64,000 nucleotides of DNA. Source: an uncultured Synergistales bacterium (GTDB taxonomy: Bacteria; Synergistota; Synergistia; Synergistales; Aminobacteriaceae). A program made the translations under genes and the position numbers. How positions within the stretch are numbered: position 1 is the first letter of the stretch; every line of letters begins with the position of its first letter. This document shows positions 58,081-63,582 of the stretch, piece after piece. The stretch is from positions 1-64,000 of the forward strand of contig CAJOCL010000001.1 of NCBI GenBank assembly GCA_905233565.1. Reading direction: 5' to 3'. The notes beneath the pieces were generated by a model. It was not told where the DNA came from, made no database searches, and was given only the letters and a program-made list of their open reading frames with translations.

Positions 58081-59052
58081 TTAATATTTGCTTAAAATTT
58101 CCTCCGCAAAACTTTTCACAATTTTTTTGAGTTCTTCAGGCTCTATAACTTCAATATGAGGTGCGCCCGACATAACCCATCTTGCAACTTCATACAAATT
58201 TGGAACTTCAGCAGTTAAAATGATTCCTCCTTCTTTGCTGTTTTCAATTTTTTGAGTGGGATGCCATTTAATTTCACGCAATGATTCCGCTAAAGGTTCT
58301 GTGATATGAACTTTGATTAAAAATTTTTCAAAGCCCGGTATTACGTGCCATGCCGATAAAACATAATCTTCCGTAAATCCTGCTTCTTCAGGCAAAATAT
58401 ATTTTTCATCTGAAATTGACGCATTTATTATTCTGCTAATCCTGTGAATACCCAAATTTTCAAATTTATGATTATATGAAACCATATACCAGGCATTACC
58501 TCTGAAATAAAAATCATAAGGCGATAAAATCCATTGTTTAGGCATTTTTTCAGGAGCTGAATACAAAATATTTAAGGCTCTTTTTGAGTGTTTAGCTTCA
58601 ATTAACGTGTTAAAAATTTCTGCGTCGATTTCGGCAATAGGCAGACTCATCATTGTTGTTCGGACTATTTCTGAACCATGTGAGATAATTTTTTCGGGAA
58701 TATAATTTCTCAACTTATCCCATAAAGAATCAGAGGATTTTTTCAAATGAGGCAGGAAATGAGCAGCCATACTTAAACCGGCTGTTAATGCTTCGATTTC
58801 ATGTTTTGTAATCTTGAGATTTAATTGAAAAGTTCCCGCACTCTCCATTACATATAATTTTTTGTGAGAATTGTATTTTATATCAGCACCGTAAACACCG
58901 CGCAAATAATATAAATCATTTTGAAAAGTGCGGTTACTTGTATATTCTCCCACTGAATATATTTCACTATGAGACGCTTTTACTTTTGACTGCAAAAACG
59001 CCATAACCTTTGAAAGCCTGTCATGCCTTATTGATGTCATATCTTTTGGCAT
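58081..59052 (-). CDS. WYL-domain transcriptional regulator
   Basis: This is a 323-residue regulator with an N-terminal winged helix (RLSKVMAFLQSKVKASHSEI; SNRTFQNDLYYLRGVYG) and a central WYL domain, where the motif reads WYMVSYN with IHRISRI after it. A C-terminal WCX-like domain follows (VARWVMSGAPHIEVIEPEEL). WYL proteins often control defence loci such as BREX and CBASS by sensing a nucleic-acid or nucleotide ligand. I chose the ATG at 59052, with AAGGAG upstream. A terminator separates it from the nuclease gene, so it is probably a separate unit that regulates the island. Confidence 0.9.
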   Translation of the reverse strand: MPKDMTSIRHDRLSKVMAFLQSKVKASHSEIYSVGEYTSNRTFQNDLYYLRGVYGADIKYNSHKKLYVMESAGTFQLNLKITKHEIEALTAGLSMAAHFLPHLKKSSDSLWDKLRNYIPEKIISHGSEIVRTTMMSLPIAEIDAEIFNTLIEAKHSKRALNILYSAPEKMPKQWILSPYDFYFRGNAWYMVSYNHKFENLGIHRISRIINASISDEKYILPEEAGFTEDYVLSAWHVIPGFEKFLIKVHITEPLAESLREIKWHPTQKIENSKEGGIILTAEVPNLYEVARWVMSGAPHIEVIEPEELKKIVKSFAEEILSKY

Positions 59053-59112
59053 TATTACCACTCCTTTATTTTTTATATATAATAGAGTGATACTGCGCAA
59101 AAATAAAGTGCA

Positions 59113-59157
59113 GAGAAAAAGAAGAGGCTTTCACGAAAAAAGTTAGACGTAAAAGCC
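59113..59157 (-). terminator. Terminator of the AAA/FtsZ-like/nuclease operon
   Basis: On the minus strand, stem GGCTTTTACG / CGTGAAAGCC (one G-T pair), followed by TCTTCTTTTTC. It ends the four-gene unit before the WYL gene. Confidence 0.75.
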
Positions 59158-59166
59158 CGTTAGTTT

Positions 59167-60276
59167 TTAAGCATTTTGCTGAGAAGAATTTATATTTTCG
59201 AGATATTCCTTGATTTTTTCAGCACAGTTTCCCGCAAACTTTTTCATGTTTTCTTCATCACAAAGCTCACATAAGTGAGCTACATTCTTGAAATTCACAC
59301 AATAACCATTCATGCCGCCTTTTTCAAAGTCACCCCATTTGCGGCCATGTAGCGTAAAATATCCGATGAATGCAGAAGTATAGCCATACCATTCTTCAAC
59401 ATCAAAGAACACGCCGGGTTTTGTGTTATCATGTTCGCAGTTGTGGTAAAAAAGGCCACGTACTGCCTTAGATTGATTTTTATAATAAAAATCATTATTT
59501 TCCGGCTTATATTCTTTTTCCAGCATTTTTTCAACAGTCTCAAACAATTTTGTCTGTAGAACAGTTCCTATAGCTGACAAAATACTTTTTGCGGCTCTCT
59601 GATTTTCGGGAGACTCTCTAATTAATTTGGCAATTTCCATTTTTAATTTTTCCTCCTTAGTCTGTTGTTCAGTAAATTTTTTCACTGCCTCAGCAAATTG
59701 CAGCAGTACTTCTCGAAGCGGTGCATTTCTTATTACTTCCGGCTGACCTATGCAATATGAAATCCAATCGTATATGTCATTTTTGAACGATATACATTTC
59801 ATATCTTCTGCAGGCACTCCGTACGAGCTTTCAGGGCTTGGCGCATGGCCGTCGGGGGTGAGGTAAAAAATCTTTGCATCATCGTCATATTTTTTTGCTT
59901 CCTCGTAATAGTCTTTGCATTGCTCGTTGAGATCCCATGCCCATATTTTTACTTCAATCGGAATAAAAAGCTTTTTGCTTCTGATTACAATATCAATTTT
60001 GCGCCCGTTTTGAGTGTAATATTCTATGTAAACTTCCGCTTGTTCAAGTTTGTAGTCAGGAATATCTAACTCAAGTACTTTTCTTACAAATAACTTGAGA
60101 AAAAATTCCCTCTCTAGGATTTTACACAAAAAACGGCATATCTTCCTTTCGTCTGCCTCAACGCCTAAAGCCTCAAAAACGTTGAAGCGTTCTGTAACTC
60201 TTTTATTTTCGTGTACAGCGTCAAATTCTTTCAACTGTCTTGAAACTTCTTTTAACAGATGTTCAACTTCCTGCAT
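59167..60276 (-). CDS. PD-(D/E)XK nuclease family protein
   Basis: This is a 369-residue protein of the PD-(D/E)XK superfamily (similar to the PDDEXK_4 type). The N-terminal VFEALGVEADERKICRFLC is followed by the catalytic core: the Asp in GRKIDIVIRSKK and the ExK in FIPIEVKIWAWD. Then comes an alpha-helix with a Gln, as expected for the family (NEQCKDYYEEAKKY). The C-terminal half is not recognised. The start is ATG at 60276, with AAAGGAG seven bases upstream; the frame start at 60306 lies inside the FtsZ-like gene. It follows that gene by 16 bases. It is a DNase by family, but the specificity is unknown. Confidence 0.88.
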   Translation of the reverse strand: MQEVEHLLKEVSRQLKEFDAVHENKRVTERFNVFEALGVEADERKICRFLCKILEREFFLKLFVRKVLELDIPDYKLEQAEVYIEYYTQNGRKIDIVIRSKKLFIPIEVKIWAWDLNEQCKDYYEEAKKYDDDAKIFYLTPDGHAPSPESSYGVPAEDMKCISFKNDIYDWISYCIGQPEVIRNAPLREVLLQFAEAVKKFTEQQTKEEKLKMEIAKLIRESPENQRAAKSILSAIGTVLQTKLFETVEKMLEKEYKPENNDFYYKNQSKAVRGLFYHNCEHDNTKPGVFFDVEEWYGYTSAFIGYFTLHGRKWGDFEKGGMNGYCVNFKNVAHLCELCDEENMKKFAGNCAEKIKEYLENINSSQQNA

Positions 60277-60292
60277 GGAAAAACTCCTTTCT

Positions 60293-61078
60293 TTATTTTT
60301 TATCATTCATTCCTGCGATGAAAGCAACCTGCAAAACATCGCCCATTTCATCGTCAATTATATGTCCCCATATAATTTGAGCATCAGAGGCAGTATTTTC
60401 TTCAAAAATCTCTGCAGCGTCTGACATTTCGCTTAATGAAACTGCACCGCCTGTTGTTATGTTCAGAAGAACCCGTTTAGCCTGTTTGATTTCTCCGCAC
60501 ATATTCATGGCTTGCAATGCGGCTATTTTTGCTCTGTTATCTCCTTCAGCGTGGCCTGCTCCATAAAATGCCGTGCCAGTATCTTGAAGAATAGCTTTAA
60601 TGTCTTCAAAATCAAGATTTACAAATCCCGATTTCGTGATTAGGTTTGCAATGCTTTCAACAACATTTTGTGAAGATTTTATCTGTTCGTCAAAAGATTT
60701 TTCTTCATCAAATGAAATTAAAGCATCGGAGGCTTCTTTGAATTTTGCTTTTAATTCCTCATTATTACTGAGAAAAATTCCGATAGTTAATTTGTCTGCT
60801 TCCTTAGAGGCTTTTGCCATATTCGGAGTAAGGGGGCTGTCTCCGATAACAAAAATTACGTCCGAATCCATAAAATTTTTGTCAATAATTTCTTTGCATT
60901 CGTCAGAATTATTAACCTTGAATTTCAACGGAGTTTTGAATAAATCCAAAATCTCATCGCTTGCCTGAAATCTTACGTCAGCAAATTCAACGCCCTCAAT
61001 TTTTCCGAGCATTTGTTCAACAACCTGACAACCTTTTCTGCCTACACCTAATGCGACAATTTTTTCATTCGTCTGCAT
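60293..61078 (-). CDS. Short divergent FtsZ/tubulin-like protein
   Basis: This 261-residue protein aligns with FtsZ over most of its length but is much shorter. The N-terminus IVALGVGRKGCQVVEQML replaces the T1 GGGGN loop. Residues 71-103 take the place of the tubulin signature strand, but the GGGTGTG motif is lost (GDSPLTPNMAKA). The T7 loop GFVNLDFEDI keeps Asn154, Asp156 and Asp159. GAGHAEGDNRAKIAALQAM and the strands VLLNITTGGAVSLSEM and VAFIAGM follow the FtsZ core. GTP binding is doubtful; polymer contact through T7 may remain. It may be close to the FtsZ-like families described for membrane remodelling. It is the third gene of the island operon. Confidence 0.85.
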   Translation of the reverse strand: MQTNEKIVALGVGRKGCQVVEQMLGKIEGVEFADVRFQASDEILDLFKTPLKFKVNNSDECKEIIDKNFMDSDVIFVIGDSPLTPNMAKASKEADKLTIGIFLSNNEELKAKFKEASDALISFDEEKSFDEQIKSSQNVVESIANLITKSGFVNLDFEDIKAILQDTGTAFYGAGHAEGDNRAKIAALQAMNMCGEIKQAKRVLLNITTGGAVSLSEMSDAAEIFEENTASDAQIIWGHIIDDEMGDVLQVAFIAGMNDKK

Positions 61079-61081
61079 TCT

Positions 61082-61270
61082 CTATTCTCCTTCCTTAATT
61101 GCATTATGCTTAAAATTGTTCTTAGTTATACCATAAATATTTCTTTGTTTACGTGTCAATTTTTCTTTTGAGGCTCTTTCAGCTTGCAATGCTGACATTT
61201 CAAAATTATTAACTGTTAAAAAATTTCTCATAGTTTTAGAGGGAATACATGCTATTACTTTTTCATTCAT
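61082..61270 (-). CDS. 62-residue protein of the AAA/FtsZ-like operon
   Basis: This small basic protein begins MNEKVIACIPSKTMRNFL and has a charged, helical middle (SALQAERASKEKLTRKQRN). It is not recognised. The start codon overlaps the AAA gene stop (ATGA), and the stop lies three bases before the FtsZ-like gene start, so it is translated as part of the operon. Its constant position between an ATPase and an FtsZ-like protein suggests an adaptor or inhibitor; this is inference. Confidence 0.8.
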   Translation of the reverse strand: MNEKVIACIPSKTMRNFLTVNNFEMSALQAERASKEKLTRKQRNIYGITKNNFKHNAIKEGE

Positions 61271-63477
61271 GATAGAAAACCTGCCTTAATTTTTTCGTGC
61301 TTCATTGACATTTCACGCCTTAAAGCATCGATTAAAATTTCATGCGTTGTCGTTCTTTCATTCGATAATAACGAACTGTATTGCGAACGTACTGAATGAA
61401 AATCTCCCGGAGTAAGCCTTGTAAAAGTTTTTAATTCTCGTATAAGCTCTGAGGGAAGTTCATTTTTGCACAGAGGTTTTAATAACGAATTATAAAGTGC
61501 TAAGACTTGTGAAGTTCCTGAATAATCGAATTTGATTTTATAAGAGAAACGTCTTACTGAGGCCGGATCAAGTTCGTTAATTCTGTTTGTTGTGCAGATA
61601 CAAAAACATTTACATTCTTCAAGATTGACGAGAAACTCATTAACGAAACTGACTTCCCAAGAATGCACAGCCATATCACGGGAATATAAAAATGTATCAG
61701 CCTCATCAATTACAAGCACTGCACCTTCATTTTCAGCGTTGCGGAAAGCTCTTGCAATCCTTTTTTCAGTTTCGCCCACAAAACAGTCTTGCAAATCGCT
61801 TGCTCTCTGAATAAAACATTCTCTGTCAAGTTCGTGAGCTATATGTTTTGCCAATGCAGTCTTGCCAGTACCGGGAGGCCCGTAAAATAACATTGTTGCA
61901 CAGCCTCCTTCAATTTTAGATTTTGCGCTTTTCATAAATTTGTCAGCCCTCAAACATCTTTGCATTAAATCAGAAATTAACGCCCCGTCAAGAGTAAGTC
62001 CGTCAAGCGTAAAATCTTTTACTTCATCCCCGACTCTGCGAATTATTTTCTCACCTCCTCTCAAAAATGTTGTGTATGCTTTCATTGAACATTCAACAGC
62101 CGGCACAAATTCATCACCGCGATATTCGAGAGTTTCAGCCCTATCTATAGAACTTTCAATAACTGCTGCAGGAACTTCATAATTTTTTGCGAGTGATTTT
62201 ATTTGAGGGACTGTGAAATATTTTTCAACTTTATGACGCTTGATTATGTCATTAAATAATTTTTCACGTTCGTTTCTTCCGGGAGCTTCAAAGAATACAC
62301 TGAATAAAAATCTTCTCATGATTGACGGGTGAATATGATCAACGTGATTCGTTATCCAAATAACATGATTTTTAGGCCTCTCAAGCAGAGTAGTGAGCCA
62401 TAATTTATCTTTGCCGTTTTCCTGTTGAGAATCTCTAAGGCTTGTATCTAAAATTTTTTCAGCCTCATCGACAACAACAAAACTTCCCGGATGTTTTGAA
62501 GCTATATTCAAACATGCTATTACTGATGTAGCCGAAGCAAATACTTCATAGTCTCGTACATTTATTGTAAATGCTTTAATGCCAAGAGCTTTTGAAAGGC
62601 TGCGGGCGAAAGTTGTTTTGCCTGTACCCGGAAGGCCGTACAGCATTATATGGACAGGAGCAGAACTTTTTGACTTCAAAAGACGGACAATATAATTTAA
62701 TTCATCTTTTTTGATACTAAAATTTTCAAGCGGTAAAGTTTCACCTTTCATTTGAATGCAGAATAAATTTTGCGGATCAATTTCAGGTTGCTCAAAAATC
62801 TTTATTATTGTGTCATCAAAACGAACTCCCTTGTCATTAAAACGAACTCCATTTCCGCCTTGTATTCCTGTGAAGACTTGTAAAATTTTACAAGTCTCAA
62901 GTTCATTTATGGCATTGTCAAGTCTGAAGATATTCATGTTTAGAATGCACGCAAGAATTTTTTTGTTTCGTGGTCTCCATACATCAATAACATTACCAAA
63001 CCAATTGTCAGTATATAAATTTGTCTCGTATATATACGCAAACTCCAAAAAATCCAAAGCGTCATTACTTAAACCGAAAAATTTTTCAAATTTTTTCCGA
63101 ATAACCTCATAATTTTTAGCATCAGAAGTTTTGTATTTTGAAATTTCTTCGCAGATTTTCAATGCCTGTGTCATGATAAAACTTCTAACATAGGGGCATT
63201 CATCAGCAGCTTCAGATAATTCTCTGCTTAGCGCATCATGGTGGCGGTATCCTTGAACTTGATAAAGCAGCTTAAGAGCTTCTTGTTTTTCCGGAATATC
63301 ACGTTCACCTTTTACATTGTTAATTACATTACGCAACAAGTGTCTTAAATTTCCGCCCATATTATCAAGATATTCAAAAAAACGACTACCGACCTCGTCA
63401 GCCGTAAAATATTTTGCCCTTAACAATCTTGCCATATATAAAGCCGCTTTAGCATCTTCATATAAAATCTCACTCAT
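61267..63477 (-). CDS. Tandem AAA+ ATPase
   Basis: This 736-residue protein has an N-terminal helical domain (~1-250) of unknown role and two AAA+ modules. Module 1 has Walker A GLPGTGKT (~281) and Walker B FVVVDEAEKIL (~333). Module 2 has Walker A GPPGTGKT (~533), Walker B AVLVIDEADTF (~587) and arginine finger residues in ASVRRFSYKI. The layout recalls p97/ClpB-type remodellers but there is no protease or substrate domain. A seven-residue in-frame duplication (VRFNDKG / VRFDD) lies at ~211-221. The start is ATG at 63477, with AAGGAAATA upstream; a longer open frame to 63561 has no ribosome site. It is first in the island operon. Confidence 0.87.
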   Translation of the reverse strand: MSEILYEDAKAALYMARLLRAKYFTADEVGSRFFEYLDNMGGNLRHLLRNVINNVKGERDIPEKQEALKLLYQVQGYRHHDALSRELSEAADECPYVRSFIMTQALKICEEISKYKTSDAKNYEVIRKKFEKFFGLSNDALDFLEFAYIYETNLYTDNWFGNVIDVWRPRNKKILACILNMNIFRLDNAINELETCKILQVFTGIQGGNGVRFNDKGVRFDDTIIKIFEQPEIDPQNLFCIQMKGETLPLENFSIKKDELNYIVRLLKSKSSAPVHIMLYGLPGTGKTTFARSLSKALGIKAFTINVRDYEVFASATSVIACLNIASKHPGSFVVVDEAEKILDTSLRDSQQENGKDKLWLTTLLERPKNHVIWITNHVDHIHPSIMRRFLFSVFFEAPGRNEREKLFNDIIKRHKVEKYFTVPQIKSLAKNYEVPAAVIESSIDRAETLEYRGDEFVPAVECSMKAYTTFLRGGEKIIRRVGDEVKDFTLDGLTLDGALISDLMQRCLRADKFMKSAKSKIEGGCATMLFYGPPGTGKTALAKHIAHELDRECFIQRASDLQDCFVGETEKRIARAFRNAENEGAVLVIDEADTFLYSRDMAVHSWEVSFVNEFLVNLEECKCFCICTTNRINELDPASVRRFSYKIKFDYSGTSQVLALYNSLLKPLCKNELPSELIRELKTFTRLTPGDFHSVRSQYSSLLSNERTTTHEILIDALRREMSMKHEKIKAGFLS
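62811..62850. repeat. Direct repeat within the AAA gene (19-base units, 21-base period)
   Basis: TGTCATCAAAACGAACTCC (62811-62829) and TGTCATTAAAACGAACTCC (62832-62850) differ at one base. They keep the frame and give a seven-residue duplication in the N-terminal domain of the AAA protein. It is probably a slippage duplication. Confidence 0.7.
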
Positions 63478-63582
63478 TATTTCCTTATCCCCATCAATTT
63501 TTTTATTGAGTTTTATTTTACGGAAATAATACGCAAGTATAAGGTGTAGAGTTTTTTTCAATAAACTTCACGGCACTACGCT

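Follow-up and report, generated by a model that had tools for sequence, protein, structure and literature searches.

A predicted GTPase-dead FtsZ paralog in WYL-linked nuclease cassettes of a Synergistales genus

The locus and its genes

The DNA considered here is a stretch of 64,000 nt, referred to below as the window, from an uncultured Synergistales bacterium (assembly GCA_905233565.1, contig CAJOCL010000001.1). The locus under study occupies positions 58081-63477 on the minus strand and combines genes for a tandem AAA+ ATPase, an FtsZ-like protein, a PD-(D/E)XK nuclease and a WYL-domain regulator, with all five of its open reading frames (ORFs) on that strand. Its G+C content is distinctive, being 35-36 % over 58-64 kb, as compared with about 44 % in the surrounding DNA and 40-47 % in nearly all of the remaining window. 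The features of the locus, in the order in which they are read, were as follows.

63515-63546, minus strand: promoter box 1, CACCTTATACTTGCG-N11-TAAAAT, upstream of the AAA+ gene (17/19 match)
61267-63477, minus strand: tandem AAA+ ATPase, Cdc48/p97-like (736 aa; ATG start; two Walker A sites)
61082-61270, minus strand: small ORF (62 aa; ATGA overlap with the AAA+ gene)
60293-61078, minus strand: FtsZ-like protein, a predicted pseudo-FtsZ (261 aa; 3-base gap after the small ORF)
59167-60276, minus strand: PD-(D/E)XK nuclease (369 aa; 16-base gap after the pseudo-FtsZ gene)
59126-59157, minus strand: hairpin GGCTTTTACG-12-CGTGAAAGCC followed by a T-rich tract, a possible terminator between the nuclease and WYL genes
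59079-59110, minus strand: promoter box 2, CACTTTATTTTTGCG-N11-TATTAT, upstream of the WYL gene (19/19 match)
58081-59052, minus strand: WYL-WCX transcription regulator (323 aa)

The starts of all five ORFs are backed by ribosome-binding sites and conserved relatives, and the WYL gene begins at the same position in its relatives. An earlier, sequence-only reading had described four genes on one strand with an ATGA overlap and gaps of 3 and 16 bases, followed by the WYL gene, and the ORF positions bear this out. That reading also placed a terminator after the nuclease gene. A hairpin does exist there (9 of 10 pairs, with a 12-base loop) and appears in the inverted-repeat listing, but it would be a weak terminator and was not called by the terminator scan, for which its loop is too long. 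Three features of the locus went unremarked in that reading: the missing GTP site of the FtsZ-like protein, the origin of the small ORF as a deletion remnant, and the two copies of the promoter box. The exact five-gene order is known only from the window genome.

Fold, motifs and origin of the FtsZ-like protein

The FtsZ-like protein was recognized by the Pfam FtsZ_C profile (E=9.5e-16), and the same search gave no match to the Tubulin GTPase domain. Its AlphaFold 2 model (pLDDT 95.3, pTM 0.92) retains the two-domain fold of FtsZ, with a Z score of 33.9 and a root-mean-square deviation of 1.9 Å over 257 residues when the two structures are compared. The motif table reveals that the GTP-binding loops T1-T6 have been lost: GGGN of T1 is replaced by RKGQ, T3 and T5 are deleted, GGGTGTG of T4 has shrunk to DSP, and the N of T6 is replaced by E. 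The T7 loop is intact (GFVNLDFED, with the motif N-x-D-x-x-D at N154, D156 and D159), as is the C-terminal domain, and the protein stops five residues past FtsZ_C, with neither a C-terminal linker nor the conserved tail peptide. In FtsZ, the T7 loop triggers hydrolysis of the GTP of the neighbouring subunit. Judged by these features, the protein appears to be a pseudo-FtsZ without GTPase activity; the tree described below traces it to the ftsZ of the genus itself.

The T7 residues N207, D209 and D212 (E. coli numbering) are retained in 21 of 23 paralogs. These positions have a mean identity of 0.94, whereas the other well-conserved columns reach 0.48, and none of 87 circular shifts did as well. 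Comparison of the window protein with its counterpart in genome G009 gave a ratio of nonsynonymous to synonymous substitution rates (dN/dS) of 0.19, as against 0.036 for true FtsZ, which points to purifying selection on the pseudo-FtsZ.

The sequence-only reading had proposed that the AAA+ protein loads or remodels an FtsZ-like filament, with the nuclease as output. The operon order and the class of the AAA+ protein are in keeping with that proposal. However, the nucleotide site is gone from all cassette-type copies of the pseudo-FtsZ, and the trio of AAA+ protein, small ORF and FtsZ-like protein, whose recurrence in distant taxa had been set beforehand as a test, is absent outside the genus. 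Since the pseudo-FtsZ has no known FtsZ GTP-binding motif, such a filament is considered very improbable.

To place the protein, 43 genomes of the genus were compared; these are mostly draft metagenome-assembled genomes, so that contig ends cut some neighbourhoods and faulty assembly may account for some of the frameshifts. About half of them carry extra FtsZ_C copies. In the phylogenetic tree, all 25 pseudo-FtsZ rows form one clade (support 97/96) nested in the FtsZ of the genus (99/100), which indicates that the pseudo-FtsZs arose once, within the genus; the inner order of the clade is unsure because some of its branches are long. Its basal row is a 297-aa copy in G061 that lies directly upstream of the true ftsZ (L192:3018-5219) and has degenerate GTP loops with an intermediate motif, GGSTGSG. 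This tandem pair looks like the birth stage of the pseudo-FtsZ. The true FtsZ of the window genome is encoded at L052:6208-7512. Other genera of the same family had no second FtsZ_C copy, with one match in each genome that had a match at all. Separately, most genomes of another family of the order (f4) have two FtsZ genes, which are full-length in the cases with a listed frame.

A second sub-clade of the pseudo-FtsZs consists of lone FtsZ_C genes (about 140-225 aa) at several conserved chromosomal sites, which are listed here by neighbouring gene.

cstA: L033-L036 and L038
ilvC: L039, L041 and L042
rlmN: L040 and L043

The lone genes adjoin no nuclease, and an AAA+ gene adjoins two of them (in G021 and G005). 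Pseudo-FtsZs are thus found in three settings: alone, fused to ankyrin repeats, or in cassettes with WYL and nuclease genes. A phage origin was also considered and was rejected: no encoded relative was found in viral_contigs, and the matches in phage and plasmid records are only 24-40 % identical and are read as host ftsZ, the annotated ones being ordinary ftsZ.

The pseudo-FtsZ therefore shares with cell division FtsZ its fold, T7 loop, C-terminal domain and apparent ancestry, and differs from it in the absence of T1-T6, the linker and the tail peptide. It also resembles FtsZl1 and FtsZl2 in that these, too, diverge from FtsZ within the superfamily and have conserved gene neighbours; Makarova and Koonin (2010) reportedly described them as widespread families tied to membrane remodelling. 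Unlike them, it appears young, genus-restricted, GTPase-dead and linked to WYL and nuclease genes, and in the tree it falls inside the FtsZ of the genus.

Cassettes, partner genes and a shared promoter box

A fixed four-gene system, as first proposed, is not what the genus contains. The gene content of the cassettes varies between genomes, and they appear to be modular, with PD-(D/E)XK or Mrr nucleases interchangeable around the WYL regulator and the pseudo-FtsZ, and with the AAA+ protein in some. The forms observed were as follows.

Window: AAA+, small ORF, pseudo-FtsZ, nuclease, WYL
G009 (L083 and L024, two contigs joined by inference from overlapping ends): AAA+, two proteins of 209 and 207 aa, pseudo-FtsZ
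G064 (L195): AAA+, microbial PARG, pseudo-FtsZ
G035 (L025): pseudo-FtsZ-ankyrin fusion, WYL, PDDEXK_4 nuclease, convergent AAA+
G062 (L197): pseudo-FtsZ-ankyrin fusion, WYL, PDDEXK_4 nuclease; no AAA+
G010 (L026): pseudo-FtsZ, ankyrin-zinc-ribbon protein, S26 nuclease, WYL, Mrr
G030 (two copies): similar to G010, but with Mrr as the only nuclease
G004 (L030): pseudo-FtsZ-ankyrin, S26 nuclease, WYL
G034 (L044): N-terminal part of pseudo-FtsZ fused to nuclease, then WYL, Mrr

The two G030 cassettes lie on separate contigs (L027 on C2 and L028 on C10) and have identical match scores.

Upstream regions were compared side by side, and a 32-bp box, CACYTTATnTTTGCG-N11-TATnAT, was found 58-85 bp before the starts of AAA+, pseudo-FtsZ and WYL genes. 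It is present at 14 promoters in 10 genomes, with 16-19 of 19 positions matching (shuffled sequences score at most 15/19) and a fixed 11-bp spacing to the -10 element. Within the window, the only two matches of at least 16/19 are the two promoters of this locus. Because the consensus was derived from these same upstream sequences, the independent tests are searches of the whole genome and of the genus. In the 2.02-Mb genome there are four exact matches to the core (CACYTTNNNNTTGCG), box 1 among them, and two of the four are in the locus. The third stands before an operon encoding a 156-aa protein and an Mrr_cat nuclease (L244:2391-4012, G000:C5), relatives of which are located directly behind the WYL gene in G010, with 86-91 % identity over long pieces. 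The fourth is a bare relic (L245:644-658, G000:C26), almost identical to the AAA+ promoter of G009; it has no downstream gene of its own, and next to it, on the other strand, is a PIN-like toxin gene pair.

An exact search across the genus gave 16 matches, a number not above that of the reversed control. Ten of these, including all seven with a TAT core, are at cassette promoters or relics, and the remaining six fall within unrelated genes or next to them, for the most part in coding sequence. The lone FtsZ_C genes have no such box upstream. A palindromic WYL operator was also sought and rejected, as the upstream regions have no inverted repeat in common and a promoter-like box is conserved instead. 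The common box implies that the AAA+, pseudo-FtsZ, nuclease and WYL genes belong to a single regulon, whether or not they adjoin one another, and we infer that the WYL protein binds it. The functional link between these modules that the sequence-only reading had drawn is thus upheld by recurrent linkage in other genomes, by the box and by gene fusions.

The WYL protein matches the Pfam WYL (E=4.5e-9) and WCX (E=2e-14) profiles. Copies 71-80 % identical to it are found in other genomes with FtsZ-like/ankyrin cassettes or at contig edges; all WYL genes at least 70 % identical to that of the window follow FtsZ-like/ankyrin genes where the contig is long enough, and nearly all have a nuclease or a 458-467-aa protein on one of their two sides. 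The family of the latter, whose genes come immediately after the WYL gene in three genomes (L080, L081 and L082), has no Pfam or PADLOC match and is a possible further effector. The nuclease matches PDDEXK_4 (Pfam, E=9e-25) and PDC-S26 (PADLOC, E=3e-58), and its motif is intact in the translation (K-I-D ... I-E-V-K, within KIDIVI...IEVK), with ExK present.

The AAA+ protein matches the Pfam AAA profile over two stretches (E=8e-46) and has two classic AAA domains with Walker A and B motifs. Its nearest solved structures in the PDB, by profile and by fold, are Cdc48/p97, Rix7 and Afg2, and a C-[FY]-[VI]-G motif in D2 may, by analogy, be a substrate-threading pore loop. It occurs in 7 of the 43 genomes, and every copy has an FtsZ-like or WYL gene no more than about 4 kb away. 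In homologs from beyond the genus (34-50 % identity), namely those of Desulfovibrio, Oscillospiraceae and sister Synergistota, an FtsZ-like neighbour is absent, though a WYL-WCX gene often adjoins them (Desulfovibrio L095, L099, L102 and L103); in viruses there was one weak match. The AAA+ and WYL genes would therefore be the older pair, which FtsZ joined in this genus. The two-gene unit of Desulfovibrio matched no known system.

These data bear on two further explanations. The pseudo-FtsZ might be an adaptor or scaffold that, at the ends of FtsZ filaments, recruits its partner, be it AAA+, ankyrin or nuclease, to FtsZ or midcell, for example to unfold FtsZ. The proximity of every AAA+ copy in the genus to an FtsZ-like or WYL gene, the direct fusions of pseudo-FtsZ to ankyrin arrays and the Cdc48-like fold would all be accommodated. 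However, the homologs without an FtsZ-like neighbour imply that FtsZ is not a general substrate of the AAA+ protein, which is moreover missing from most FtsZ-like cassettes, and we regard this explanation as quite unlikely. Less probable still is that the FtsZ part is a recycled domain now unconnected with FtsZ, and that the WYL protein, with ankyrin or AAA+ and a nuclease, forms the functional unit. The pairs of AAA+ and WYL genes without FtsZ in Desulfovibrio would fit, as would the loss of most of the pseudo-FtsZ C-terminal domain in L044, where the WYL-nuclease core is kept, and the ankyrin and WYL loci without FtsZ in the genus. Purifying selection, strict retention of T7 and the repeated re-use of the same domain are against it. 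Related WYL genes (44-50 % identity) at L086, L087, L088 and L090 stand beside large ankyrin-repeat genes with no FtsZ part, and appear to represent an older arrangement.

The small ORF, which the sequence-only reading had counted as part of the set, was rejected as a conserved partner. It aligns with the N-terminal 43 and the C-terminal ~50 residues of the 209/207-aa proteins of L024, and is the internal-deletion remnant of a genus-specific 209-aa protein, other members of whose family are mostly chromosomal and adjoin infC-rplT in several genomes. A relic elsewhere in the window genome (G000:C6, ~71189-71418; L046:9192-9418) joins a piece of pseudo-FtsZ (94 % DNA identity) to a piece of nuclease (90 %); it is what is left of a second cassette, and implies that the pseudo-FtsZ/nuclease pair moved and decayed earlier.

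Possible functions and related systems

The cassettes are probably an inducible device for division arrest or virus sensing. Between these, our tentative preference is for an inducible WYL regulon of the DriD kind, independent of LexA, in which nucleases are coupled to a division inhibitor that docks on FtsZ. This preference is founded on the DriD-like logic of the genes, the lack of a LexA domain and the presence of a T7 face without a GTP face. The direct evidence covers gene content and order, the loss of the GTP site with T7 kept, the single origin within the genus, the recurrent linkage and the common box. In Caulobacter, DriD is a WYL activator that responds to single-stranded DNA (ssDNA) and drives didA, bapE and recJ, of which didA encodes a division inhibitor and bapE an endonuclease; the spacing between its sites and the -10 element is constant (PMC12340889, PMC11804915, PMC4211646). 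The LexA DNA-binding domain (PF01726) was found in none of the 43 genomes of the genus, whereas the same search was positive in 10 of 14 controls; classical LexA-controlled SOS may thus be missing.

DNA damage or phage attack would generate a ligand (ssDNA, by analogy) that activates the WYL protein at the promoter box, and the operon would be expressed. The pseudo-FtsZ would dock through its intact T7 face onto the GTP face of true FtsZ and, offering no GTP face itself, would cap or poison the filaments, so that division stops. The nuclease would cut DNA as an executing or defensive arm, and the Cdc48-like protein might unfold FtsZ, the pseudo-FtsZ or another target to drive or reset the state. 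We infer the inducing signal, the capping of FtsZ, the nuclease activity and the AAA+ substrate from these comparisons. An end-capper of FtsZ is known in MciZ (PMC8456036), which caps by a contact other than the one proposed here.

Several observations weigh against WYL-controlled division arrest. The existence of lone pseudo-FtsZ genes, with neither box nor nuclease, means that docking on FtsZ may serve other ends. The solved structure nearest to the WYL protein is CapW, a repressor, and Pfam called no helix-turn-helix in the window protein, although one was weakly called in its Desulfovibrio relatives. The AAA+/FtsZ operons of G009 and G064 adjoin recombinase or antirestriction-like genes, so that mobile defence fits better than a checkpoint, and the distribution of the cassettes in the genus is patchy, unlike that of a housekeeping checkpoint. 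Retention of T7 is, finally, equally well explained by a decoy.

In that alternative, the pseudo-FtsZ is bait: a phage protein that attacks FtsZ would bind the copied T7/C-terminal surface and so free or switch on the partner (nuclease, ankyrin or AAA+), and the resulting defence would be either abortive or direct. There is precedent in CapRel-Ebc, which is activated by T7 Gp0.4 bound to FtsZ; hydrogen-deuterium exchange places Gp0.4 on FtsZ residues 199-206, 262-270 and 292-303 (PMC13423816), on the synergy loop and C-terminal domain, and this is the half of FtsZ that the pseudo-FtsZs retain. Conservation of these segments in the pseudo-FtsZs is 0.63, against 0.45 elsewhere, with 5 of 87 shifts as good, but the better-conserved segments also belong to the structural core. 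The fusions and cassettes with ankyrin repeats and PDC-S26 or Mrr nucleases are consistent with and supportive of a decoy, as is the frequency of WYL regulators at defence loci (PMC9122601). On the other hand, the lone genes have no adjoining effector, the catalytic T7 residues, needed to act on the GTP of FtsZ, are retained as strictly as the bait surface, and cassettes of the L044 type keep their WYL-nuclease core despite a broken FtsZ part. On balance a decoy, although the main alternative to division arrest, is judged unlikely, though it has an appreciable chance of being correct. Much the same, or marginally less, may be said of its evolutionary form, in which the cell's own essential cytoskeletal gene was copied, the enzyme site deleted and the virus-attacked face kept, giving an integrated decoy with swappable ankyrin, AAA+ and nuclease effectors, comparable to the integrated decoys of plant nucleotide-binding leucine-rich repeat (NLR) proteins. 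Sequence alone does not separate division arrest from a decoy, since both need the same face of FtsZ.

No paper on a GTPase-dead FtsZ family or on FtsZ decoys was found in the open-licence literature searched, nor was any described system with this gene set, in agreement with the sequence-only reading. As far as that literature goes, this would be the first description of an FtsZ gene that has lost its GTPase and now serves as one module of stress or defence cassettes. The pseudo-FtsZ would be a natural, genetically encoded FtsZ docking module, and the regulon a LexA-independent coupling of division to nuclease action. The system also makes it possible to ask directly whether phages are sensed in bacteria by means of decoys copied from host proteins.

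Among known systems, the DriD regulon of Caulobacter crescentus is similar in its WYL-WCX regulator, in uniting a division inhibitor (here a candidate) and nucleases in one regulon, in having a conserved site whose spacing to the -10 element is fixed, and in its independence of LexA/SOS. It differs in that the division-directed protein here is an FtsZ paralog, whereas DidA is a small membrane peptide; AAA+ and ankyrin parts are added here, the function of the WYL protein is predicted, and the box reads CACYTTATnTTTGCG rather than ATACGAC-N7-GTCGTAT. CapRel-Ebc, in sensing the complex of T7 Gp0.4 and FtsZ, has in common the synergy loop/C-terminal surface of FtsZ as a possible immune trigger, but it uses the host's real FtsZ together with a tRNA-pyrophosphorylating fused toxin-antitoxin and contains no FtsZ copy. 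Of the named profiles in PADLOC and NCBIfam, that of IetA, the antiphage ATPase of IetAS, matched the AAA+ domains best, and IetA has a classic AAA+ domain; the score against the IetA NCBIfam profile was 122.8 bits, below the cut-off of 510, the AAA+ protein here is tandem, and no IetS-like protease gene is among the cassette genes. The nuclease itself corresponds to PDC-S26, which we take to be listed by PADLOC as a single-gene candidate defence system, whereas in these cassettes it is a replaceable component of a regulon.

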